Source: Lentisphaerae bacterium GWF2_49_21 (GTDB lineage: Bacteria > Verrucomicrobiota > Lentisphaeria > Victivallales > GWF2-50-93). Taken from it: a stretch of 33,372 bases of DNA. A program made the translations under genes and the position numbers. The stretch is from positions 1-33,372 of the forward strand of contig MHBH01000030.1 in assembly GCA_001804805.1 (NCBI GenBank). Reading direction: 5' to 3'. Shown piece by piece: positions 5,995-30,696 of the stretch. The notes below the pieces were generated by a model. It searched no databases. It was not told where the DNA came from and saw nothing but the letters and a program-made list of their open reading frames with translations. How positions within the stretch are numbered: position 1 is the first letter of the stretch; every line of letters starts with the position of its first letter.

Positions 5995-6120
5995 CACGCT
6001 AAAGCTGTGAACTCCAACTTTAGAAATCAGTTCACCGCTGGCAAGTGGCAATTCGAATTAGAAAAAGCCTCGGGTCTGTGTATTGATTTGAAATTCGTTG
6101 GAGTTCACAGCTTTAGCGTG
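5995..6120. repeat. Palindromic repeat with perfect 24-bp inverted arms
   Basis: The arm at 5995-6018 (CACGCTAAAGCTG, then TGAACTCCAAC) is the exact reverse complement of 6097-6120, around a 78-bp core. The motif CTAAAGCTnGnACTCCAAC recurs, degenerate, as the outer arms of the element at 7793-8027. An 18-base stretch (6013-6030, TCCAACTTTAGAAATCAG) occurs inverted inside the alpha-toroid gene at 21256-21273. It lies in the 309-bp gap between the convergent kinase and SecD-like genes (5896-6204), where I see nothing else. It could act as a bidirectional terminator, though no T-run was noted. Confidence 0.85.
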
Positions 6121-6204: not shown

Positions 6205-7743
6205 TCAGTACTTGCCTAAAGCTTCCAGATTTGTCTTGATCTGAGACTTCAACTTGCCGTCAGGATTGAGTTCAAGAGCTTTTGACCATTCAACCTTGGC
6301 CTTGTCCTTTTCCCCCAGCTTCAGATATGCACAGGCAAGATGATCCATTACAGCTGCATCTTTCGGGGAAATTTCAGAAGCCTTTTCAAATTGCTTTATG
6401 GCTTCAGTGTAATGCCCTTGTTTGTATAGTACCCATCCCAGGGTATCCAAACATGCGCTTTCCCCAGGTTTTTCCTGAACGGCCTCCTCTGCAAGTTTCT
6501 TCGCCTTATCAAGATTGATCCCTTGCTCTGCCCAGAGGTAGGCCAGTTCATTCTTTACATCCTTGTATCCGTTATCTATAGCTTTCAGATACCATTTCCC
6601 GGCTTCCTTGTAATTGATTGGAACACCCTCAAATCCGCTTTGATAGATGTATCCAAGATTGCCTGATGCCTTGGCATTCCCCTGTTCTGCGGCCTTGCGG
6701 AACCATTCAACCGATTTGACATAGTCCCGGGTGACTCCCTTACCCTCGTAGAACATTGTCCCAATCGCATATTGTGCCAGAGGATGTTCTTGCCCAGCCG
6801 CTTTTCCAAACCATTCAACAGCCTTGGAATAGTCCTGCGAAAACCCCATGCCTCCGGAATAATACATGAACCCAAGCGTATATTGTGCTTCGGAATTTCC
6901 TTTCCGGGCATCTTCCTGCAATAATTCACTGTCGCTTCGCTTGTCTTCAGGGATGCAATTCGACTTATCCCCTTTTATCTCCTTGATCTCCAGTTTACTG
7001 GACAATGCGCCGGCAACCAGACAGGCGGCAATCTCCTTAGATTCTTCTTTGGTGAAAATTCCTGTGATCATTGCCTGTCCGCCATTTATGGCCGTACGAA
7101 TTATCGGAGCCGAATAAAGTTTTCCATCAATGACGATGGCAAGTTGGCGGTTCACATTCTTCCCTGTGATTCCAGCAAACTTGGAAGCCCCTTCGGAATT
7201 GAAGGAGACATGGATGTATCTCTGGCCGAACTGGTCAATGGAGGAACTGGCATTAATTATGTTCCCCCCGTCCATTTCAGGGATGACTTTGACAAAATAG
7301 GATATCCTGCCGTTCTTCTTATCAAGGGGGGACATCTTTTCATACCCGTCCGGGACTTTGAATTTATCCGGATCTTTTAACATGGAGTCAACAAGCTTGG
7401 TACTGTCTTCATGGACCAGACGGAATTGGATGACTCCCTGTCTTTTAATGATGTCAGCAAATGTCTCGGAATCCTTTTCCGGTATTTTAGATACCTTTAC
7501 CGACAAATGATCATCTTCAGTCCTGGAAACTTCATGCTTGATATTCGGATATATCGTATCGAGCCGTTTATTCATGGCTTCAGCCAGCTTGTTCCAGTCA
7601 ATATCCTTCTCAGAAACTTCCGGAGAGGAAGGCAGGACATTGAAGATGATTTCATTCCCGTGCTCATTAAACACAGAAACACATCCGGTAAATATGCATA
7701 GGAAGGCAAAGATAAACAGATAAAAGCTTAGTTTGATCTTCAT
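6205..7743 (-). CDS. Lipoprotein with SecD periplasmic P1-like domain and Sel1/TPR repeats
   Basis: 512 residues from ATG 7743, which follows GGGAGGAGAC; an upstream ATG at 7776 is less likely because the lipoprotein signal begins at 7743. The signal peptide (MKIKLSF...CIFTGC) ends in a lipobox with Cys21. Residues ~40-260 resemble the periplasmic P1 region of SecD: a base part (RQGVIQFRLV) and a head part (INASSSIDQFGQRYIHVSF, RQLAIVIDGKLYSAP, AACLVAGALSSKLEI). The SecD transmembrane channel domain that would normally follow is absent. Instead there are three Sel1-like repeats (AQYTLGFMYYSG, AQYAIGTMFYEG, ASGNLGYIYQSG) and then TPR-like repeats to the C terminus. It is probably anchored to a membrane facing the periplasm. 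The function is unknown; a role in protein export or envelope quality control is an inference from the P1 domain. Confidence 0.88.
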   Translation of the reverse strand: MKIKLSFYLFIFAFLCIFTGCVSVFNEHGNEIIFNVLPSSPEVSEKDIDWNKLAEAMNKRLDTIYPNIKHEVSRTEDDHLSVKVSKIPEKDSETFADIIKRQGVIQFRLVHEDSTKLVDSMLKDPDKFKVPDGYEKMSPLDKKNGRISYFVKVIPEMDGGNIINASSSIDQFGQRYIHVSFNSEGASKFAGITGKNVNRQLAIVIDGKLYSAPIIRTAINGGQAMITGIFTKEESKEIAACLVAGALSSKLEIKEIKGDKSNCIPEDKRSDSELLQEDARKGNSEAQYTLGFMYYSGGMGFSQDYSKAVEWFGKAAGQEHPLAQYAIGTMFYEGKGVTRDYVKSVEWFRKAAEQGNAKASGNLGYIYQSGFEGVPINYKEAGKWYLKAIDNGYKDVKNELAYLWAEQGINLDKAKKLAEEAVQEKPGESACLDTLGWVLYKQGHYTEAIKQFEKASEISPKDAAVMDHLACAYLKLGEKDKAKVEWSKALELNPDGKLKSQIKTNLEALGKY

Positions 7744-7792
7744 GTCTCCTCCCAAAAGGCTTCCCTTAAAATACATTTCGGCAATTTCTTAA

Positions 7793-8027
7793 GTTGGAGT
7801 ACAAGCTTTAGCTTGCGTATTTTGTTTGTAGTAGGCGAATTTATTCGCCGTTATTCCAAGTAGGTACGTGCTTCCCGTGTCCGCCATAGCTTCTTTGCGA
7901 CGGCGGAAGCATGTACCATCTTGACCATAAGAATGGGACAGGCTAAAGCCCGTCCCTACTTTAAGAACGCGCAATTAATTGCGCTACTACCAACAAATTC
8001 AAGACAAACTAAAGTTTGTACTCCAAC
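7793..8027. repeat. Nested palindromic repeat mosaic
   Basis: Several inverted pairs are nested. The outer arms are GTTGGAGTACAAGCTTTAGC (7793) and ACTAAAGTTTGTACTCCAAC (to 8027). Inside lie GTAGTAGGCGAATTTATTCG and AATTAATTGCGCTACTAC. Further in are GGTACGTGCTTCC and GGAAGCATGTACC around a CCGCC/GGCGG hairpin. A module covering 7883-7960 (GCCATAGCTTCTTTGCGACG through GGGACAGGCTAAAGCCCGTC) recurs at 30951-31023. The element fills most of the 315-bp gap between the SecD-like and DnaJ-like genes; I see no gene there. Confidence 0.85.
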
Positions 8028-8058: not shown

Positions 8059-9081
8059 CTATTCTCCATTCCGCGGATTGAATGCGGATTTATCCTCTAG
8101 TTGTTTCCACAGGCGCTTTTCCTCTTCGCTGGCTTGTGGCGGAACTTGAATTGATATCCCGACATAGAGGTCTCCCCTCTTTGCATTTCCAGCCGGCAAA
8201 CCCTTGCTGCGGGCGCGAAGCTGGTTCCCCTGCTGGGTGCCTGCGGGAACTTTCAATGAAACCGTGCCTTCCAAAGTCTGCACTGGAACCGTCGCGCCCA
8301 GTACCGCCTCCCAAGGAGCCAGTTCCAGACTGCCGATCAGATCGGCTCCGCGCGTCTCAAAATCAGGATGCTGGGCATAACGCACACGCAGATACATGTC
8401 CCCGGCGCTGCCTCCGGCAAATCCGGCATCGCCCTTGCCCCTCAGCCGGATGGACTGGCCTGCACGTACTCCCGCAGGAATGCGGACCTGATAGGTTTGA
8501 GACTCTTCCTGGCCCGTATGGGCATTGGTGCGCCGGACCGTGATTGCACGCATGGCGCCCTTGAGCACCTCTTCAAGCGTAATGAGGATATCCCCTCGGA
8601 TATCCTGCCCCCTCTGAGCCTCTGCATACTGTTCCTGTGTCTCATAGTCTTGGCCTCTGGCCTGCCGGGATCCGAATGGAGAGAAACCGCCGGAACGGCC
8701 GGCCCGTCCACCAAAGAACTGTTCAAAGAAATCGCTGAAGCCAGTTCCCTCAAATTCAAAATTAAACTCTTCTCCACCCGTCCCTCGCCCGTAAGTCTGG
8801 CGGAAAGCGCCTTCCCTGCCCGGAGGAGGCTGTCGGAATCCAGCGCCCTGCTGCTTCCAATCTGCACCAAGCTGGTCGTATTTCCTGCGGTTCTCAGGAT
8901 CACCTAGAACCTCATAGGCCTCATTGATATCCTTGAATTTGGTCTCCGCCGTCTTCTTGTCCTGGGCGACATCGGGATGATATTTCCGTGCAAGCGTGCG
9001 AAACGACTTCTTGACATCTTCAGCCGAAGCGTTCCTTGGCACACCGAGGATCTGGTAATAGTCTTTGAATTCAAGCGGCAT
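8059..9081 (-). CDS. cbpA: CbpA-like DnaJ-family co-chaperone
   Basis: 340 residues with GGAG six bases before the ATG. Residues 1-70 are a J domain with the HPD motif at 35-37 (ARKYHPDVAQ), which stimulates DnaK ATPase activity. A Gly/Phe-rich linker spans about 75-155 (GGRAGRSGGFSPFG). Two C-terminal substrate-binding beta domains follow (about 160-335; ITLEEVLKGA, VRIPAGVRAGQSIRLRGKG, GDLYVGISIQVPP). The CxxCxGxG zinc-finger repeats of classical DnaJ are absent and the linker joins the C-terminal domains directly, as in CbpA. It is cytoplasmic. The eRF1-like gene ends 56 bases upstream on the same strand, so the two may be co-transcribed. The gene symbol is by architecture, not by a search. 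Confidence 0.93.
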   Translation of the reverse strand: MPLEFKDYYQILGVPRNASAEDVKKSFRTLARKYHPDVAQDKKTAETKFKDINEAYEVLGDPENRRKYDQLGADWKQQGAGFRQPPPGREGAFRQTYGRGTGGEEFNFEFEGTGFSDFFEQFFGGRAGRSGGFSPFGSRQARGQDYETQEQYAEAQRGQDIRGDILITLEEVLKGAMRAITVRRTNAHTGQEESQTYQVRIPAGVRAGQSIRLRGKGDAGFAGGSAGDMYLRVRYAQHPDFETRGADLIGSLELAPWEAVLGATVPVQTLEGTVSLKVPAGTQQGNQLRARSKGLPAGNAKRGDLYVGISIQVPPQASEEEKRLWKQLEDKSAFNPRNGE

Positions 9082-20184: not shown

Positions 20185-21327
20185 CTATCTCTGGTATATG
20201 GGCAGCTGGTGGTATGTGACGCTTAGCGCCAGGACAGCCATCGCCGTTGCATAGCATGGCCCCGGCTGTGTCTCATGCTGTCCGATCGGCGGCCAGGAAC
20301 CGTCCTCCTTCTGAAGCTTCAGGAGAGTCCCGTAGATCTTCGGAGCAAACTTCTCCCACTGGTCATCTCCGAGCTGGAACATGCCTTGTGCAAAATAATA
20401 ATGCGCATAGTAGAAGAACGGTATCTCATGTGTCTTGTTCACGTCATATTTTGAGGAAATGTATTCTCCTGCCTTGATCGTTGCATCTTCGCGATGACGG
20501 CTGCAAAGTTCGAGGCAGAGAAGCGCCACTCCGGTCTGCGCTATGGTCGCCCCTCCTCCGGGCTGATATGCAAATCCGCCGTCCTGCGCCCGGCACTTCA
20601 TGATGAAACGGACCGCATCCTCAATCGCCTCCTTTGGAACCGGCGCACCGTTGTTTCGGGCAGACCGCAGCGCCATCAACGCCCAGCCTGAATGCGACAG
20701 ATCACTGTCGTTGCTGTTCCGTTCATAACGCCATCCGCCGCGGTGCGCGTCCTGTTTCTGCACCCGCTGCGCGTCCAGGATGATCCTAAGGGCCTTGCCA
20801 AGGGCCGCATCAACCTTTTTCTGGCGCTCGGGATTCAGCATTCCGGAAACTTCCGAAAGCATCAGCGTTGAAATGTTGTGGCTGTACATCTGTCCGCCGC
20901 CATGCCCGATCAAACTGCCGTCTGGCGACTGCGACGCCAGTACAAAGTCTATCCCCCTGTCTATCGTTTCGCCGTATGGAGCAAGGCCCGGACTGTATCC
21001 ACGGGCAAGATAAGCCATTACACAAAGAGAAGTGATCGCCGTATTCTTCGCCATTCCTCCGGGGAACGAACCGTCTGGCAGCTGGGATTTTGCGAGATAC
21101 GCAAGCGCCCTGTCAACAGAGTCGTCAAAGGACTTCTGGTACTGCGGATCCTGCTTGAACACCTTTTCCGCCGCGGAACTGCTGTTTCCTGAAGCAAAGA
21201 GTACGGCAAAGGCTAATAGGATTGAGGAGGCAATTTCAAAATTTCCTCTCTTGAGCTGATTTCTAAAGTTGGAAATTGGAAATTGAGTGTTGGATATTGG
21301 GTGTTCGCAGATTTTATTCATAATCAT
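20185..21327 (-). CDS. Prenyltransferase/squalene-cyclase-like alpha-toroid repeat protein
   Basis: 380 residues. A hydrophobic signal segment (IASSILLAFAVLFASG) is preceded by an unusual 30-residue extension. The mature part has (alpha/alpha)-toroid repeats of the terpene-cyclase/prenyltransferase type: SQLPDGSFPGGMAKNTAITS, SQSPDGSLIGHGGGQMYSHN, GGWRYERNSNDSDLSHSGWA, AQDGGFAYQPGGGATIAQTG, QKEDGSWPPIGQ. No DxDD cyclase motif is seen, so enzymatic cyclisation is unlikely. It is an exported protein that closes the MoxR operon, overlapping the previous gene by ATGA. Similar proteins accompany such operons in Planctomycetes and Lentisphaerae; the function is unknown. Confidence 0.88.
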   Translation of the reverse strand: MIMNKICEHPISNTQFPISNFRNQLKRGNFEIASSILLAFAVLFASGNSSSAAEKVFKQDPQYQKSFDDSVDRALAYLAKSQLPDGSFPGGMAKNTAITSLCVMAYLARGYSPGLAPYGETIDRGIDFVLASQSPDGSLIGHGGGQMYSHNISTLMLSEVSGMLNPERQKKVDAALGKALRIILDAQRVQKQDAHRGGWRYERNSNDSDLSHSGWALMALRSARNNGAPVPKEAIEDAVRFIMKCRAQDGGFAYQPGGGATIAQTGVALLCLELCSRHREDATIKAGEYISSKYDVNKTHEIPFFYYAHYYFAQGMFQLGDDQWEKFAPKIYGTLLKLQKEDGSWPPIGQHETQPGPCYATAMAVLALSVTYHQLPIYQR

Positions 21328-24300
21328 CTTCCCTCCATGCCGCGTTTAGAGAGCTCCTCGAAATATCTTCTGATTATCTCCCTGTATTCCTCGGGCCCTT
21401 CGCTCGCCGACGACTGCAGTATCTCGCTCCGGAGGTTTCCCGGAAGCCTGAGCCAGTCATCATACTTTATCCCCATGCGCCTGGCGATCTCATCGAATCC
21501 CGGAGGCGCCTTTTTCGCGTTGTCGTTCCTGCCGCCTGAGGAGACCGATGACATCTTGCCCGGTGTCGTATTGATCCCAGCCTTCGCCGCCATGGCCATC
21601 GCCTCCTGCGCGGCAGAGTTCAATGATTCCGCAGACTGTATCGCGTCGATCGCGTCCTGCCCGACGGCCGCCTTCCTCGCAAGTGCTGACGCGGCCGGAA
21701 GATCAGGTTCGCCTTCCTTTGACTGCGCCTGCTGTGCTGGAAGATTTTTCGCGGCATCGTCAATCGCCTTCTGCGCCTCCGCCATCTTAGCGGCCGCCTG
21801 ATCTAGTGATTTCGCGGAAGAATCCTGGGCCTGCTTCAATTCGTTCGGAAGATTACCGGAAGGATTTTTCTTCGGATCCAGTTTCATCTGCCGTGACTCC
21901 TCCGCCATTTTCCCAAGTGATTTTCCGGCGTTGTCGGCGTTCTGCAGCGCGCCCTGCAGATTGTTTTCACCTTCGGCGGCAAGCTGCTGGCTTTTCTGCG
22001 GGAGATTCAGCTCCCTTGCATTCATCTGGAACGCCTGGGCATCCTTCTTGAGCTCTTCAGCCCTCTTCTCAATGTTCTCCTGCTGCGCGACGAGATTTTC
22101 GAGCGGTGTCCCGTTGGCAAGCGCACCTATCTCCTTCTGGAGCATCTCCTGGGCCTGGGCAACATCACCCGCTTTTTTCGCAAGCTGGGAGACAGGCGAA
22201 TGCGCCGGAGAGTTTTTACCTGAATCATCCTTGCCCCCGTCGATCTGCGACGCAGCTGCTGCTTCAAGCCTGTCTGTCAATGTATTCAATTCCTTTGCCG
22301 CTTCGGCAGCATTCTTCACGGCTGAACCCAGATCCGAATTATGCAGCGAATCCTTCGCCTTGCCGGTGGAATCCTTCGCTTCGCCTGCGATCTTGCTTTC
22401 AGACGGAAGCTCCTTGGCAACCTGCGCCGCAATGGACTTCGCCTCCTCTGCCACAGCAGCCTGGCGCTTCTCAAGTTCCGCTGTCTGCGCACGCATCTGC
22501 GCTTCCATGCTCTCGCCCTTCTCCTTCAGCAGTCCGGCCGTCTTTTCCTTCAGCATATTTGATTTTGCGAGTTCCGCAGCCGTGTTCTGCTGTTCCGCGA
22601 GTTCACCCAGTTTCTTGTCAAGCTTCTGCATTTCGGAAATCTTCTGTGCGCTTTCGGCAAGACGTTTCTGGTCTTCGTTGAGCTTGCGCGTCTCCTCTGC
22701 GATCCTGCCTGCCTCCTGCAGCTCCGCAGAATTCTTCAGCGCCGAAAGTGGAGCCTGCTCCCTTGCGAGTTTCGCAAGCGTGTCGGCCAGATTGTCCTGC
22801 CGTTTCTTCCATTCTTCGAGCTTCTTCTTTAGTTCAGGATCCATGTTCGCGGCATTTTCCGCGGCGGCCTGGAGCTTGTCGATATCCAGTTTCTGCTTTG
22901 CAAGATCCTCCTGCCTGTTCGCAAGATTTTCAATTTCAACGGCATGCTCCATCGCCTTCGAGGCGGTCTCGGATTTCTTCAGCATGTCATCGATCGCGGC
23001 GATTGCCTTGTCAATATTCTTCGTTATGTCCTCAAGAAGCTTATTGCGCTCCTCCGGACTCTCGGCAAGAGTCAGCTGGTCGGTAAGCCCTTTCGCCTTT
23101 GAAAGCTCCGCATCATGCAGCTCGTTGATCTTCTTCGAGACATCGTCGAAGAATCCGTCGGAAAGCTTTTCAGACAGATTCCTGAGCGTGGCATCTCCAT
23201 TCGCCAGGTTCTCCCTGAGAACTCCTGTCCGTTCAGACAATTGTTCCGGCTTCTTCTCGTTCTTCGATGCGACCTCCTTCACAAATGGAACCTTCTGCTT
23301 CGACTCCTCGAGCTCCCTCTTCGCCTGCTGGAGCTGGTTCTTCAACGCCTCCTCCTGCGACTGCAGGGCCTGCTCCTTGAACGATTTCGCGTTGTCGTCG
23401 ATCACAAGCACGTACTGTTCGGAAAAACCTTTCTGGGCCCCCTTGAGATTCTCCGGAAGATTGTCCGAAACCACGAGCTGGAACATCAGGCGCCTGACGC
23501 CGCGCAGATCCGAATCCGTCAGGTTTATCACCGGATTTCCTTCAAATTTCCTGAGCGGCTCCTTCTCCGAGGGATTCTTCGGAAGCGCTACGTTTCTCGG
23601 CATGAGCTTCACGGAATCCTTCTCATATAATATTTCAACAGACTTCAGCCCTACGTCATCAGTCGCGAAAAAATAAAACGGGAAATGATCGTCCGGCCTG
23701 AGACGGATTTCCTTCTGCGGGAGATTCGTTATCACAATAACCGGGGGAATGTCCGCCAGCGCCTGCACTGCACGTTCAAACTTCGTATTCTTAAGGCCGT
23801 GATCATCTGTAAGCTGTATGGAATAGATCCCCGCCAGACCGGAAGTCAGCGGCAGGCGGAACACGATCCGGCATTCACCGCTGCGGCTCATGTCCGGTTC
23901 TCCCTGTATCGACACCGGTTTCGCAGCCTCTATCTTCATGACAGCGGATGAACATGGCTTGTTGACCTTTATTGAAATTGTCGCGACGGATCCGGCAAGA
24001 GCGGATACTGTTCCGGTTGAATTAGCCTCCACCTTCTGCGGCAGGCATGAATATTCCGGATAGTCGATCTTCAGATCAAGGCTTTCAACTACTGGAGGAG
24101 TAACAGCGGTCACCCTGTAATATTTCGTAATCGCGTCATCCGCCTGTACGCGGTATGTGAAATTCCTTTCGACGGATGTCACTGCAAATGTGAAGCACTG
24201 GGCCTTGTCCTTTTCAAGCTGCTGGGTCCGTCTCATGTCATCGTCAGATACGCGACCATCGTCCAGAGTCCTCTGGATTTTCGCCGACCTGATTCCTCCT

Positions 24301-24989
24301 CTGGCGGACGAGAGGTTGATCTCAAGGCGTTCCCCGCGCGGCACGAAGACGTCGCCAGGCCTGACCTCAAGGTCGAGTGCCATGATGTTCGGAAGGTTTG
24401 CGAACGGCGCAGTCGCACGCGCCAGGAGGAACGAGGCCTTCCTCGGGAAAACTGCGAATATCGCAGCCATGATCAGGATGAAAGCGGCGGCGGCGGCGAA
24501 GAACGGGAGGGCGGCCTTCATTGAGATTTCGTTCTTGGGCTTGAGGCTTTCCGCGTCGGCGGTGGCTGCCTCCGTGAGAGCGTCGATCAATTTCTGCGAA
24601 CCTCGCACGTTCGCATCATCCGAAGTGGTCAGGAGCTCCACTGCGGAACTGAGGCGTTCCTGCATTTCCGGATGGTGCGCCTCGATCATGTGTGCGAGAC
24701 CCGCAAGGGTGAATGAACGCGCAAAAGGAGCAACAAGGAACACATATATCGCGGCTGCGGTGCCGATGTATATCACCGCCGAAATCATCCAGCGCGTGAT
24801 CGGCGACACTATCAGGATTCCCGCGTCCAGTCCCATAGCAATCAATGTCATTCCGACAAAAACCGCGATGACAGCGCATATTCCGCGGATCAGGATCACC
24901 TTCCTCGTCCTGCCCAGCAGCTGCCGAAGCGCCTTGGCAATCGGTAGGGGTATGGATTCAAGCCGTGTTTGAAGCTTATGTTTTTTCAT
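21324..24989 (-). CDS. Large membrane coiled-coil protein (DUF4175-like)
   Basis: 1221 residues from ATG 24989, which overlaps the TGA of the gene before; an ATG at 25019 lies deeper in that gene. Two membrane segments near residues 35-85 (VILIRGICAVIAVFVGMTLI) and a third near 165 (ALPFFAAAAAFILIMAAIFA) are followed by Ig-like beta regions to about residue 530 (VVESLDLKIDYPEYSCLPQK). About 550 residues of Ala/Lys/Glu/Gln-rich coiled coil follow to about residue 1110 (EEALKNQLQQAKRELEESKQ). The C terminus is short and globular (RRMGIKYDDWLRLPGNLRSE). DUF4175-type proteins are known neighbours of MoxR/vWA operons. It probably spans the periplasm as a scaffold; this is inferred. Confidence 0.85.
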   Translation of the reverse strand: MKKHKLQTRLESIPLPIAKALRQLLGRTRKVILIRGICAVIAVFVGMTLIAMGLDAGILIVSPITRWMISAVIYIGTAAAIYVFLVAPFARSFTLAGLAHMIEAHHPEMQERLSSAVELLTTSDDANVRGSQKLIDALTEAATADAESLKPKNEISMKAALPFFAAAAAFILIMAAIFAVFPRKASFLLARATAPFANLPNIMALDLEVRPGDVFVPRGERLEINLSSARGGIRSAKIQRTLDDGRVSDDDMRRTQQLEKDKAQCFTFAVTSVERNFTYRVQADDAITKYYRVTAVTPPVVESLDLKIDYPEYSCLPQKVEANSTGTVSALAGSVATISIKVNKPCSSAVMKIEAAKPVSIQGEPDMSRSGECRIVFRLPLTSGLAGIYSIQLTDDHGLKNTKFERAVQALADIPPVIVITNLPQKEIRLRPDDHFPFYFFATDDVGLKSVEILYEKDSVKLMPRNVALPKNPSEKEPLRKFEGNPVINLTDSDLRGVRRLMFQLVVSDNLPENLKGAQKGFSEQYVLVIDDNAKSFKEQALQSQEEALKNQLQQAKRELEESKQKVPFVKEVASKNEKKPEQLSERTGVLRENLANGDATLRNLSEKLSDGFFDDVSKKINELHDAELSKAKGLTDQLTLAESPEERNKLLEDITKNIDKAIAAIDDMLKKSETASKAMEHAVEIENLANRQEDLAKQKLDIDKLQAAAENAANMDPELKKKLEEWKKRQDNLADTLAKLAREQAPLSALKNSAELQEAGRIAEETRKLNEDQKRLAESAQKISEMQKLDKKLGELAEQQNTAAELAKSNMLKEKTAGLLKEKGESMEAQMRAQTAELEKRQAAVAEEAKSIAAQVAKELPSESKIAGEAKDSTGKAKDSLHNSDLGSAVKNAAEAAKELNTLTDRLEAAAASQIDGGKDDSGKNSPAHSPVSQLAKKAGDVAQAQEMLQKEIGALANGTPLENLVAQQENIEKRAEELKKDAQAFQMNARELNLPQKSQQLAAEGENNLQGALQNADNAGKSLGKMAEESRQMKLDPKKNPSGNLPNELKQAQDSSAKSLDQAAAKMAEAQKAIDDAAKNLPAQQAQSKEGEPDLPAASALARKAAVGQDAIDAIQSAESLNSAAQEAMAMAAKAGINTTPGKMSSVSSGGRNDNAKKAPPGFDEIARRMGIKYDDWLRLPGNLRSEILQSSASEGPEEYREIIRRYFEELSKRGMEGR

Positions 24990-27900
24990 GGCAGATTCAC
25001 CCTTTTTCTTAATAACCATTCACCCACTGCAAGCCCTATGAGCAGGAGCATGAACGGCCAGGAATTCCAAATGGAGACCTGTCGCCGTTCCGTCTGTATC
25101 AATGATGGAGGACCGAACTTTTCCATGGCCGTCCGCGCCATCGGAGGTTCAACTACGGCTCCGCCGGTGAGAGTTGCGAGCCTGTTCAAAGCACCCATGT
25201 CGGCGGTAAGTTCGACAAGTTCCGCAGGAGAGGATGCGGCTACCCCGAATTCGGCGCGTGCGGCGGCAAGTTCCGGAGCCATGTCCTCAGGAAGCCCCGG
25301 ACATTCAAGTATAAGCTTGTATCCGCCTTCGGGAAGCCTGCCGATGTCGCCGGAATAGATTCCCGCGGAATTTGTTTCAAATTTCAGCTTCTTCCTGCTG
25401 ACCTCCTTTTCACCGTTCATCACGCGTATCGACGGGGACAATCCGGTGACAGGAGAAAAATCGCGGCGCGTGATCTTGGCGCGAACCCTTACATTCTCAT
25501 CGGGACTGTAACGGCTCTTGTCGGCGGCGATCTTGATGCATGAAGAACCGAACAGGATCTTGTCGGCCGTGGCCCAGCGAAGAAGCTGTCCCCAGAACTT
25601 ATGATGATAGGTGTCCCCTTCCCTGTAGCGGAGTCGCCAGGATTCGTCGAACGTAAGCATCGCAACTCTGCCAAGCGCGTAGTTCTGGCAGACGATCAGA
25701 GCGTTCTCAAGTTCGAACTGGCGTCTCATCTTCAATGTCTCCTCGTCGGGAACTTCATTTGAGGCCCTTGGCTTCAGGAACGCAGGCGCCTCGAACGGCA
25801 TTGCATATGCGAGCACTGCGGCTCCGGGCTTTGCGCTCGAGATCGGATGCCTCCAGTAGAGCGACGGCAGCTCGTTCCAGACCTTTGCATTTTCATTGGG
25901 CATCTGGGAAAGCCTGGTGATGACATGTTCGCGCCCCTCCTGCGTCAGGGCGATCCTGTAAGATTCCTCAGGCGCCTTGATGAACGGCACATCGCTTGCC
26001 TTGAAGCTCACAGGAATGATTTCCTCGAGCTGAGTTCCAGAAAACGAACGCGGCATTTTCCCTGATCCTGCCACCATTATCAGCGCGCCTCCTCTTTCAG
26101 CTACGAACTTCTTCAGCGATTTAATTCCTTCGGCGCCGATCGCGGCAGGATCCACATCCCCGAGGATGATCACATCGAACTTCATCCATTCCTCGTCGTT
26201 CGCCGGAAGCCTGGTCGCCTCCGGTTCTTCGACAGGTCTTGACGCCGAAGCCGACACTGCCTGCTTTGCCGGAATATTGTCGATCGTATCAGGTTTCAGG
26301 ATCACGTACTGCAGGCGGACAGACTGGTCGCGGCTGACAAACAGGTTCTTGAGATATCTGAACTCCCAGCGCGGATAAGATTCCACATATAACACTTTTA
26401 TGCGATCGTCGGTGACGTTCGCCGGAATTGAAAGCTCGTTGTTCCCCTTCTCCACTTCGCCTTCAACCGCGTCTATCTGCACCTTGTAGGAATGATAGCC
26501 CACGGTCTTCGGCTTGTCGGAAAGCAGGATGCGTTCCCTGAGGGAATCGGCCTTCACATCGATGTTCCTGGTATCGACGATGTTTGCGCCGTCAAGCAGC
26601 TTGACCGAGATCTTCTTCCCGGAAAGATTGTCTAGCTTCACGTCGACATCGGCCTTGAAGCTGTCGTTGATGAACAGCATGTCCGGCGCATCCGCAGACA
26701 CTACCGCCGCATCCTTCGGTGGACGCTGATCATTTCCAAACGCGAGCGAGCATACCGGTATCCTGGCCTGTCCGAGACGTGCCGCTATCGTCTCAAGCGG
26801 TTCTGAAGCGTTGTGCCTTCCATCGGAAAGCAGGAGGATTCCCGCGAGCTGTCCTGCCGGAATGTCCGACATCGCCTTTCCCAGGACTCCCGAGATATTG
26901 GTGCCCATCGACGACTGGCTGTGGCCAGTTTCATCAGCGGAATTCATTTTGCCTGACAAGAGCTTCTGCTGGTCGAGTTCGGTGGGTTTGACCGCAAATG
27001 CATACGCCTTCATGCCATAGCTGTCTGAGATCCTCTGGATGATGCTGCCAGATTTCTTTGCATCAGTTCCCGAGCCAGGAGGAGTGGTCAGGATCTTCGC
27101 GGCAAGATCGCTGCGCTTGAGAGCGGTCAAGGCATCAATAGCGGTGCGTTCCGCCTCCGGAATGGACTTGTAGAGCGCCTGGTCGATCTCGTCGCCGAAA
27201 ACAGCGATCTCCTTTTCCCCGACCTGCAATGAATCGATCGCCCTCTTGCCTGTATCAAGTATTTTGTTATAGTCAACAACGATCTTATCCTTGTCCCCGC
27301 TTTTTTTGCCCAACGACTGGATGGCCGCTTCAAGAAGCTTGATCCTTTCGTCGAGGACATTCATTGTTTCCGAGCTGATGCGTTTGGAGGCGGAATCAAT
27401 CCTGCCCTTGACCTGATCGGCGAGAACAAGGCTTTTCAAGGCCAGGACTTCATTTAGCTTTGCCGGCTGAGCGGCGACATTTTTCCTGATGCTGCGCGAG
27501 GATCCAAGTATAGGTTTAAGTTTTTCAACAGTCTGATCTCCGGAACCCGCCGATATCTGGCTGAGCGTCACCAGTCCATCCATCTGGGCGGAGAGCTCCT
27601 GCCGGGCCTGGTCCAGGACTGAAACAGTTTCCTCGGATCGGAAAGGGCGTTTTGTCTTCAGGACCGAGAGATATTCTGCAAGCCTTATCCTTTCGCCAAG
27701 GCCCATTCCCGTGTCAGCGATGTCCATGGAGGCGCTGTTGTCGACGGCCACCACGACATAACGGTCTATCTTGCGTGAAACTTCAAAGCTCCTGACCGGC
27801 TGGCACAATGCGAAGGTCACGAGAAGCACCAGCAATGCACGCAGCACCCTGATTATCTTCCCCTCGCGTTTGCGGACAGTCTGGCATTCGAACGCATAAA

Positions 27901-28186
27901 GGACAAGGACAATCTCGGTGGAGATCGCTCCGACGAGAAGTATCAGCCATATCGCCCAGGTGGTTGCAAAGATCAGGTGCCGCTGGAACGCCTGTGCAGC
28001 GACAAGAAGGGCGATGAAGCAGACGAGGGCACGGACTGCAGGCGAAACAAAAGTCATCCATCCCGTACCATGGACACTCCAGGGACGCAGCCGGATCCAC
28101 GCGGCGAAAAGCAGGATCGTCCCAATCCACAGGATCAGCGTTGGCACGCTCTGGGAAAGCAGGAAATGCTGTGTCATTTCATTCAT
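24986..28186 (-). CDS. Membrane protein with split vWA domain and glutamine-amidotransferase-like fold
   Basis: 1066 residues; the ATG overlaps the TGA of the previous gene. Four N-terminal membrane segments lie within residues 10-130 and one is at the C terminus (WPFMLLLIGLAVGEWLL). A vWA domain begins with MIDAS residues DNSAS at 149-153. Its other metal-binding residues appear only at Thr429 (SSMGTN) and Asp455 (LLLSDGRHN), so about 230 helical residues are inserted after the first strand. Residues ~595-720 are a class I glutamine-amidotransferase-like fold (IKVLYVESYPRWEFRYLKNL, VIILGDVDP) without the catalytic Cys. Such proteins are recognised in MoxR-associated operons. A role in metal-dependent protein-protein contacts in the periplasm is inferred. 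Confidence 0.9.
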   Translation of the reverse strand: MNEMTQHFLLSQSVPTLILWIGTILLFAAWIRLRPWSVHGTGWMTFVSPAVRALVCFIALLVAAQAFQRHLIFATTWAIWLILLVGAISTEIVLVLYAFECQTVRKREGKIIRVLRALLVLLVTFALCQPVRSFEVSRKIDRYVVVAVDNSASMDIADTGMGLGERIRLAEYLSVLKTKRPFRSEETVSVLDQARQELSAQMDGLVTLSQISAGSGDQTVEKLKPILGSSRSIRKNVAAQPAKLNEVLALKSLVLADQVKGRIDSASKRISSETMNVLDERIKLLEAAIQSLGKKSGDKDKIVVDYNKILDTGKRAIDSLQVGEKEIAVFGDEIDQALYKSIPEAERTAIDALTALKRSDLAAKILTTPPGSGTDAKKSGSIIQRISDSYGMKAYAFAVKPTELDQQKLLSGKMNSADETGHSQSSMGTNISGVLGKAMSDIPAGQLAGILLLSDGRHNASEPLETIAARLGQARIPVCSLAFGNDQRPPKDAAVVSADAPDMLFINDSFKADVDVKLDNLSGKKISVKLLDGANIVDTRNIDVKADSLRERILLSDKPKTVGYHSYKVQIDAVEGEVEKGNNELSIPANVTDDRIKVLYVESYPRWEFRYLKNLFVSRDQSVRLQYVILKPDTIDNIPAKQAVSASASRPVEEPEATRLPANDEEWMKFDVIILGDVDPAAIGAEGIKSLKKFVAERGGALIMVAGSGKMPRSFSGTQLEEIIPVSFKASDVPFIKAPEESYRIALTQEGREHVITRLSQMPNENAKVWNELPSLYWRHPISSAKPGAAVLAYAMPFEAPAFLKPRASNEVPDEETLKMRRQFELENALIVCQNYALGRVAMLTFDESWRLRYREGDTYHHKFWGQLLRWATADKILFGSSCIKIAADKSRYSPDENVRVRAKITRRDFSPVTGLSPSIRVMNGEKEVSRKKLKFETNSAGIYSGDIGRLPEGGYKLILECPGLPEDMAPELAAARAEFGVAASSPAELVELTADMGALNRLATLTGGAVVEPPMARTAMEKFGPPSLIQTERRQVSIWNSWPFMLLLIGLAVGEWLLRKRVNLP

Positions 28187-30696
28187 GATTTAAAATTATA
28201 ACTTTCAGGTGAATGGTTTGTCTGGCCATGGAACTCGACGGCCTCAACCAAGTGAATGCGGCGGTTCGAGGCTATCCAGCGTTCAAGCACAACTTCAGCG
28301 ACGAGTATCACAAGCGCCAGCGCCATCAGATATTTCCAAATCTCCCTGCCGGGAACACCTCCGGTCGTGGCGGTCATCAGCTCCTCGATGTTCTTCGGGG
28401 AAAACAAATCGATGCGGTCGCGCAGGGTCATTAATTCCTCTTCGGAGAGTTTTCCAAGACTGCTCTCCTCCGGGTTCGCAAGGACAACGAACGGCATTTC
28501 TGTCAAAGGCTGTCCGTCCGCACCCTTCGGAGAATCCTTGATCGACGCCACCATTATCCTATAGAGCCCGGGCCATCTGGTGTCGGAGCACCTGACAAGA
28601 CGGCGCCCGTCCACTTTCAGGAGTTCGGCCTTTCCCGGACGTCCTATCGGCGCCATGACAGGAAGTTCCTGCACCTTGCCCGACACATCGGCCCTGGCGG
28701 AAGTCTTTGTTGATACTGCGCTAGGAGAAGATCCGTCATTCAGCTCGAATATGACCTCCGTCCCGGCTTTTATGTTTGCATCGACACCGCCTGCGGAAGA
28801 CAGATGATAGACAATTTCATGCATTGCCGGCACGAAGATTTTCAGGGAAGGGAGCGTACTGTCATTCCGGTCCATCGCGAATGAGGTCATGGCTACGAAC
28901 CCGTGCCCGAATTTCCTTTCCGCCATGAACGGATCGCCTGTATCGAGGAGTCCGCATACGTCGACAGACACATCTGCCTTGTCGATATTGAAGCGCCAGT
29001 ACGAATTTATCAGCGCGAGCGAAGCGTCGGAACGCGTTGTCTCCGCGCATAGCCTGAGGGCCGGATGCGTAAAGCTCTTCAGCGCGAAATGCGCAGGAGA
29101 GTCCGGCAGATTCTTCCTGGCAATGATTTCAGCGGGAAGGAATCTTTCCCCCGACTGCGAGCGGAACGAATTGAGCATCTTCGGATCCGTCCGGTCGCCC
29201 GGCGCGATAAAAAGCCCTCCTCCGGACCTGACCCGCGCGATGAGCTTCTCACCGAGCTGCTGAGGAATGAAAGGAGGATTGGCAAGGATTATGACACGGA
29301 ACTTGTCCAGATCCATCTTCATGGCCACATCGACGCCGACGACTTCCGGTTTGATCGGGAATGCCAGGCCGGCCTTGTTCTCAGGCGAATTCACATTCCC
29401 CGGACAGAGCGCAAGTCGCATGAATTCAGCCGCACCGTCGATCGGGCGCTTTGAAGGGGCCCCGTCGATTATCAGCACAGGGAGGGTGTCGATCACGTCA
29501 ATGATCCTGGTCTGGGTATTGTCCACCTCCTGATCGTCGTTGCAGGCGATCTCACATGTCACCACCGCGCGTCCGGCCTTCTTGAAGCGGTGCTCGAAGG
29601 TGACGGTTTCGGAAGCGCCGGGAGGAAGTTCCTTGAGGAATGTCTCGCGGGTAATCGTCTCTCCGTTGATCAGCAGTCTCACAGCGGCAGGCTGGATCGG
29701 CAGATCTCCGCCGTTGACAACCTTGACTTCGATCTTGACGGGCTGACCTATTCCAGGACAGGCGCGAGGGAACGTGATGTCCGCGATGGCCGCGTTCCTG
29801 AACGGCTGCGGGAATGTAAATCTTCGGACTACAACCTTTGGACGTATGGCGGAGGTGTTGAGGTTCCCTGCAAGATAGTTCCATCTCGCCTGGCTTTGGA
29901 TGTCCCAACCGACCGCCTGCTTGTCGGTGAAGAGAACTATCTTCTTGACGGGATTCCGTCCTTCCACGAGCATCGCGGCGGCGGCGTTGAAAGCCTCCAG
30001 CGCGCCGAAGGATCCGCCTGCCGGTTGGAAATCCCTGTGGTTTATCATGTCGATTATTTCCCTGTGGTTCGAAGTCGGCGCCTTGACAAGTGCGTATGGA
30101 ATTGGACCGGCCAGTATGAGACCGACAGAATCGCCGGAGGAGCAGTTCTTCACGATCTGGATCGCCTCATCCTTTGCGCGGTTGAAATTAGGACGCCCGT
30201 CGGCGAGAATCCTCATGGAGTCGGAACCGTCAATGATAATGATGATGTCGCGGTCGCCGCTCGCGGAAAGCCAGGAGCGTTTCTGGAGCCATCGTTCCGA
30301 TGCCGCCGCGGCAATTGCGAATATCGCAGAAAGTCCCGCCACAAGAAGGAGGCGCTTCCTTGTCTTTACGGATTTCCACACAACCGAAGAAACTCCGATG
30401 CAGATCGAAGCGATTGCGAGAAGTGGAAGGGTCACGAGCCAGGAAACGGAAGGCTGGCTCGAGAGGAACGGCCTCGCCATAGCCATTACGATCGCCGCGA
30501 CAAGAAGACAACGGAGCACAAGCAGGATCATCTCCTCAAGGAGAAGCCGGCGCCTCTCGGTCTCGAGCGAAGCCGCGAGGAAACGCATCGCGCCCCATTT
30601 GACAGGACGCGCCTTGTTCCGGTTCAGAAGATGTATCACCACCGGCATTGAAACCAGGACAAGACCAATCAGCATTGGAAATTCTAAAAAAGTCAT
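28183..30696 (-). CDS. BatA-type membrane vWA protein
   Basis: 837 residues. The N terminus matches the BatA family (FEFPMLIGL-like LEFPMLIGLVLVSMPVVIHL, then WGAMRFLAASLETERRRLLL). Membrane helices lie near residues 10-24, 55-75, 85-107 and 116-132, with one near 785 at the C terminus. The vWA MIDAS is DGSDS at 156-160. A Rossmann-like amidotransferase-type segment starts near residue 395 (LPVLIIDGAPSKRPIDGAAE). The GAGGA ribosome binding site is rather far (12 bases) from the ATG. It is the third gene of the MoxR operon and is joined by ATGA to the next vWA gene. In Bacteroides, Bat proteins were linked to aerotolerance; the role here is unproven. Confidence 0.92.
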   Translation of the reverse strand: MTFLEFPMLIGLVLVSMPVVIHLLNRNKARPVKWGAMRFLAASLETERRRLLLEEMILLVLRCLLVAAIVMAMARPFLSSQPSVSWLVTLPLLAIASICIGVSSVVWKSVKTRKRLLLVAGLSAIFAIAAAASERWLQKRSWLSASGDRDIIIIIDGSDSMRILADGRPNFNRAKDEAIQIVKNCSSGDSVGLILAGPIPYALVKAPTSNHREIIDMINHRDFQPAGGSFGALEAFNAAAAMLVEGRNPVKKIVLFTDKQAVGWDIQSQARWNYLAGNLNTSAIRPKVVVRRFTFPQPFRNAAIADITFPRACPGIGQPVKIEVKVVNGGDLPIQPAAVRLLINGETITRETFLKELPPGASETVTFEHRFKKAGRAVVTCEIACNDDQEVDNTQTRIIDVIDTLPVLIIDGAPSKRPIDGAAEFMRLALCPGNVNSPENKAGLAFPIKPEVVGVDVAMKMDLDKFRVIILANPPFIPQQLGEKLIARVRSGGGLFIAPGDRTDPKMLNSFRSQSGERFLPAEIIARKNLPDSPAHFALKSFTHPALRLCAETTRSDASLALINSYWRFNIDKADVSVDVCGLLDTGDPFMAERKFGHGFVAMTSFAMDRNDSTLPSLKIFVPAMHEIVYHLSSAGGVDANIKAGTEVIFELNDGSSPSAVSTKTSARADVSGKVQELPVMAPIGRPGKAELLKVDGRRLVRCSDTRWPGLYRIMVASIKDSPKGADGQPLTEMPFVVLANPEESSLGKLSEEELMTLRDRIDLFSPKNIEELMTATTGGVPGREIWKYLMALALVILVAEVVLERWIASNRRIHLVEAVEFHGQTNHSPESYNFKS

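Follow-up and report, generated by a model that had tools for sequence, protein, structure and literature searches.

A complete SecD P1 domain joined to Sel1/TPR repeats in a Lentisphaerae genome, and detached P1-head lipoproteins across the Lentisphaeria

Introduction

In SecDF, pulling is a proton-driven motion of the P1 domain, the base of which rearranges together with P4 (PMC8669966). The P1 head is reported to bind substrate and is also crosslinked by PpiD (PMC7793623), and it is the predicted docking site of SurA (PMC9987972). A question that SecDF poses is whether this head could work as a chaperone when the motor driven by protons is taken away. A gene of Lentisphaerae bacterium GWF2_49_21 (draft genome of 5.9 Mb in 91 contigs, 95% complete) raises the question of what a P1 domain may do once it has been separated from the membrane channel. 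The gene is carried on contig C30, and the whole of this contig is the window (the stretch of 33,372 nucleotides analyzed here). An earlier note, made from the sequence alone, had described a P1-like region behind a lipobox, joined to Sel1 and TPR repeats without a channel, and apparently re-used as a tethered periplasmic binder.

Gene model and domain architecture

The gene and its parts, all on the minus strand, are as follows:
6205..7743, minus strand, gene of the P1-Sel1/TPR putative lipoprotein, 512 aa (open reading frame and ribosome-binding site, domain matches, AlphaFold model)
7681..7743, minus strand, signal peptide ending in a lipobox-like FTG-Cys21, residues 1-21 (direct sequence reading; helix 4-19 in the model)
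6970..7659, minus strand, complete SecD P1 domain, residues ~29-258 (TIGR01129, profile match to 3aqo, Foldseek)
7417..7659, minus strand, base subdomain of P1, residues ~29-109, with its last strand at residues 249-257 (elements of the AlphaFold model)
7000..7308, minus strand, head subdomain of P1, Pfam PF22599, residues 146-248 (98.4 bits)
6220..6933, minus strand, Sel1 repeats followed by TPR repeats, a 14-helix solenoid, residues ~271-508 (Pfam matches; helices of the model)

Translation runs from an ATG at 7743, preceded by the ribosome-binding site GGGAGGAG, to a stop at 6205; the mechanical open reading frame starts 11 codons earlier, at 7776. The lipobox-like FTGC (residues 18-21) was found by inspection and has a Phe at -3 that departs from the strict consensus, and the protein is probably lipid-anchored via Cys21. 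The signal with this cysteine is followed by the base and head of P1 and then by the Sel1/TPR solenoid, and a membrane channel is absent. The arrangement read in the earlier note is borne out by Pfam, NCBIfam, AlphaFold and Foldseek, and both of the motifs it quoted (including RQGVIQFRLV) are present in the protein.

For the P1 half, Pfam, NCBIfam, the PDB sequence search and the AlphaFold model are concordant. SecDF_P1_head matches with an E-value of 3e-28 (the score in the list above stands against a cut-off of 27). The NCBIfam secD profile covers residues 52-255, ending where TM2 would begin, but its score (103.9 bits, positions 40-234 of 397) falls below the cut-off of 244.4 because the channel half is absent. 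The PDB sequence search retrieved the P1 domain of Thermus SecDF (3aqo, E 6.5e-24), and a profile built from this P1 and 22 rows of Lentisphaeria SecDF P1 matched the same structure at E 3.5e-49, values that exclude a chance match. The AlphaFold model, made with a 37-row alignment, is confident nearly throughout (mean pLDDT 90.6), although, with an overall pTM of 0.61, the placement of the P1 and solenoid halves relative to each other is uncertain. In the model the base consists of strands 30-38, 70-74, 80-84 and 105-110 and helices 50-64 and 89-100; the head comes next, and strand 249-257 closes the base. Foldseek matched the P1 half to 3aqo with probability 1.00 and a TM-score on the target of 0.78-0.80 (0.77 for chain B). 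The protein holds a whole P1, base included, and "P1-like region" was in this respect right but understated. It shares with the P1 of SecD/SecDF (Thermus 3aqo and 3aqp, Deinococcus 5xan) the base and head fold and the conserved head motifs, and differs from SecDF in having neither TM1-6 nor a proton path and in the erosion of its base positions; the lipobox-like signal takes the place of TM1, and Sel1/TPR repeats that of the channel. As to membership in SecD itself, the six-helix RND membrane domain with the proton-path Asp is absent, and residues 271-508 are soluble Sel1/TPR helices. A canonical SecDF of 866 aa is kept on contig C3 of the same genome, so that the P1 described here is an extra copy, about 37-40% identical to that of its own SecDF.

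For the second half, Pfam finds Sel1 (PF08238) above the cut-off with 91 bits over three stretches and TPR_2 with 64.9 bits over two, and Foldseek matched solved Sel1/TPR structures. A search of a viral structure library gave, among the matches listed, no SecD and almost exclusively Sel1/TPR proteins. Paralogues of this half with other N-termini are found in the same genome (44% identity on C61; 53%, over a shorter stretch, on C18), which makes it look like a swappable cassette and suggests that it has recombined with various N-termini. The C61 paralogue (L045:3201-4766) is itself a secreted Sel1/TPR protein with a different N-terminal domain; a BamE-like identity for that domain was considered and is unsupported by Pfam. 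A secreted solenoid of Sel1 and then TPR repeats is also what is shared with SLR proteins such as HcpC and with AlgK, neither of which has a P1 domain; the N-terminus of the C61 paralogue is likewise unrelated.

Uneven divergence of head and base

A way to approach the meaning of this extra P1 is to compare the conservation of its two subdomains. The comparison covered the 55 sites at which 85% or more of the SecDF rows agree; 33 of them belong to the head and 22 to the base, with the border set at residue 110 from the AlphaFold model. The P1-Sel1/TPR protein keeps 28 of the 33 head positions and only 8 of the 22 in the base (Fisher p 0.0004), and little remains of the opening G(I/L)D-x-x-GG motif of P1. 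D206, Y210 and P213 are examples of kept head residues. In almost every SecDF row both subdomains are conserved at nearly all of these positions (in one, G081, a stretch of the base is frameshifted). The detached heads beside yajC-secDF in two sister genomes of one genus (G010 and G125) keep 30 of 32 head positions each and not the base, and in other short detached versions the head alone is retained. The figures for the P1-Sel1/TPR protein point to a binding function that may have been retained while coupling to the motor was lost.

In a tree of 46 P1 rows, the branch of the P1-Sel1/TPR protein measures 2.29 changes per column, against a median of 0.2 for the end branches. An AU test rejected neither a grouping with the SecDF of the family (p 0.29) nor one with that of the genus (p 0.24) and, together with the long branch, this picks no single donor for the P1 copy. 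A branch of this length also makes a change of ligand possible. A "W.IF" motif that appeared to be shared with the SecDF of the same genome was dropped as an alignment artefact across TM1.

Distribution and genomic context

The earlier note had proposed looking for the same architecture in other PVC genomes, and the idea of recurrence found no support there: the architecture was found in one genome only. No second protein with P1 and Sel1 was found by searching the full protein against 198 Lentisphaeria and 388 phylum genomes, nor by searching PF22599 in 60 relatives and the 198 class genomes; in class and phylum the best protein matches were to SecDF P1 or to Sel1/TPR proteins, separately. 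When the full-length protein was used in a pattern scan, none of 84,980 named genomes yielded a relative; a plasmid tblastn with the P1 head matched secD genes and unannotated places, and the open-licence literature yielded nothing on detached P1 domains or P1-Sel1 fusions. With a single genome, conservation gives no support for function. The gene is a lineage-specific domain rearrangement and probably arose by joining a copied SecD P1 to a Sel1/TPR cassette of the same genome.

The neighbors of the gene are a histidine kinase gene and a DnaJ gene, and no secF/yajC linkage was found there. Three features flank it:
8059..9081, minus strand, DnaJ/CbpA-type co-chaperone, upstream neighbor (conserved in the genus; the P1-Sel1 gene is absent beside the relatives' copies)
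5995..6120, no strand, inverted-repeat element downstream of the gene (24-nt perfect arms, similar in sequence to the upstream arms)
7793..8027, no strand, inverted-repeat element upstream of the gene (23-nt arms)

DnaJ is normally a cytoplasmic protein. For this reason, and because a gap of 315 bp with a terminator-like hairpin separates the two genes and the pairing is not kept in close relatives (where DnaJ is 82-85% identical but the P1-Sel1/TPR gene does not adjoin it), a functional link to DnaJ was dropped, and there is no chaperone operon at this locus. The 23-nt arm GTTGGAGTNCANNNTTTAGNNTG has 178 copies in the genome with at most one mismatch (reversed control, 0), and these often form close inverted pairs about 20-200 bp apart. 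Elsewhere in the window (20185-30696, minus strand), four long open reading frames of 380, 1231, 1066 and 837 aa overlap or abut and look like one operon.

Possible role and alternative explanations

The reading that we favor, with a confidence just short of even, is that the protein is secreted, probably carries a lipid anchor and serves in the periplasm as an adaptor or holdase, with the solenoid as a docking arm. The P1 head would still bind unfolded chains fresh from export, or else the chaperones that encounter SecDF at that place, and the Sel1/TPR solenoid would dock a partner protein. Lacking the six-helix RND half, the protein could not use the proton gradient and might hold its client or hand it over but not pull it. 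Lipidation, membrane side, ligand, partner and the hold-and-hand-over role are what we infer. The preferential retention of the head fits binding without pulling, and the same asymmetry in the G010 and G125 heads is counted in support. The occurrence in a single genome, the lack of a chaperone operon and the long branch weigh against this reading. The periplasmic binder of the earlier note is plausible, given the binding reported for the SecDF head (PMC7793623) and the way in which the head has been preferentially retained. A comparable pairing at the Sec translocon is that of PpiD with the TPR protein YfgM (PMC9643414), a periplasmic substrate binder and a TPR scaffold at the SecYEG exit. However, these are two proteins anchored in the inner membrane, and the binder is a parvulin-type chaperone and not a P1, so that the likeness is one of function only.

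The head might instead have been retargeted to a lipid, glycan or signaling partner, and not to preproteins, making the protein an envelope sensor or scaffold. The very long branch would suit such a change, and the class-wide head lipoproteins that lie beside kinase-domain, NtrC-type and GreA-like genes in several genomes (see below) could fit sensing; nevertheless, 28 of the 33 most conserved head positions are unchanged, which is what continued use of the same surface would predict, and we regard this alternative as unlikely. We give a little less credit still to the idea that a copied piece of P1 was recently fused by chance to a Sel1/TPR gene and that the product has little function, if any, and is decaying. 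It would account for the single genome, the long P1 branch, the inverted-repeat elements on both flanks (at least one of the abundant kind) and the lack of the gene beside the orthologous DnaJ of relatives. It accommodates less easily 512 open codons behind a good ribosome-binding site and a model confident nearly throughout, and neutral decay would not give a divergence that falls mostly in the base and spares the head (p 0.0004).

A free P1 could also compete with that of SecDF for SecF P4, YidC, BAM or chaperones and in this way tune export. The base is still folded in the AlphaFold model, and in SecDF it is the base that rearranges with P4 (PMC8669966). Yet with most of its conserved base positions lost (8 of 22 kept), and most of G(I/L)D-x-x-GG with them, contact with the motor looks abandoned, and a regulator of SecDF appears improbable. 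Least credible by far is an assembly or binning artefact joining two genes, in spite of the draft state of the genome (91 contigs) and of an architecture seen once: the junction is in-frame and well within a 33 kb contig, the adjoining DnaJ is 84-85% identical to that of the same genus, the P1 resembles Lentisphaeria SecDF and the repeats match paralogues of the same genome. Compared with these alternatives, the adaptor or holdase remains our preferred reading.

Detached P1 heads across the Lentisphaeria

What does recur in the class differs from the fusion and consists of small head-only lipoproteins. Besides GWF2_49_21, 27 of the genomes in which PF22599 matched more than once have a match in a short frame that is not SecDF. 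In 15 of these the proteins are an assorted set of short head-only versions, mostly secreted and several with a clear lipobox, of which a few are fragment-like (e.g., L073, and a match with a stop in L075). The remaining 12 belong to one divergent lipoprotein family of ~190 aa (alignment A2), whose profile matches SecDF P1 with an hhalign probability of 97. This profile has matches in 191 of the 198 class genomes and 80 of the 82 high-quality ones, including GWF2_49_21 (on C40), although a handful at the weak end (about 1e-4 to 1e-7) probably represent SecDF itself.

Other members found with A2, not picked by PF22599, make up a second alignment (A5). It matches P1 at an hhalign E-value of 2e-7, and PF22599 is detected weakly, below the cut-off, in 9 of its 18 rows. 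When the PDB was searched with its AlphaFold model (pLDDT 83.5), the first ten matches were Sec translocon entries, the first eight of them SecDF at probability 1.00, and among the matches listed all others had a probability of 0.15 or less. In the 388 phylum genomes the A5 family is confined to the class, except for one weak match (G308, E 1.2e-7). The ~190-aa family is near-universal in Lentisphaeria and has a SecD P1-head fold, as judged from profiles and the predicted structure, and it is not modelled as a family of its own in Pfam or NCBIfam. Its member in GWF2_49_21 (L119:4573-5178, i.e., C40:68126-68662, plus strand) gives no blastp match with the P1 of the P1-Sel1/TPR protein; the two are related at the level of profile and fold only. 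Channel-free, secreted and mostly with a lipobox, the head-only proteins of the class (e.g., those of L041, L067 and L068, and the class-wide A2/A5 family) differ from the fusion in their length (about 160-280 aa) and in having neither base nor repeats.

Their neighborhoods vary. In L119, L120, L121, L122 and L124 a conserved order is seen: a protein-kinase-domain gene, an NtrC-type sigma-54 response regulator, the P1-head lipoprotein and a protein of ~700 aa that ends in a GreA/GreB domain. The family to which GWF2_49_21 belongs has this setting, with the regulator and the GreA-domain protein on either side of the lipoprotein and the kinase-domain gene upstream. Polyphosphate kinase and Ppx/GppA-type genes are instead its neighbors in L126, L136 and L138. 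Elsewhere in the class, in other families, the P1-head lipoprotein is encoded on the strand opposite to secDF and no more than ~3 kb away from it (L077, L079, L080, L084, L086, L131, L132 and L133). In two genomes of one genus a detached lipoprotein-like head sits just upstream of yajC-secDF (L040:2402-3055 and L065:2674-3351) and looks like a partial duplication of secD.

The fusion is one example of a wider habit of the Lentisphaeria, that of having SecD-like binding heads as separate lipoproteins, and the class-wide family is a more promising lead than the single gene. Together they offer natural versions of a motor-free test: one genome has an entire P1 mounted on a scaffold, and almost all members of the class have heads that stand free. 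If the free heads do bind exported proteins, binding and pulling by SecDF would be separable and would have been separated repeatedly in evolution. More tentatively, and with doubt prevailing, the class might operate an additional complement of SecD heads without a motor (its own P1-head lipoproteins, with elaborations such as the P1-Sel1/TPR fusion) that would take up exported proteins away from SecDF and pass them along in the envelope. As a separate observation, two full-length SecDF genes are apparent in several genomes of one family (G016, G023, G033, G047, G051, G141, G142, G143, G156 and others).
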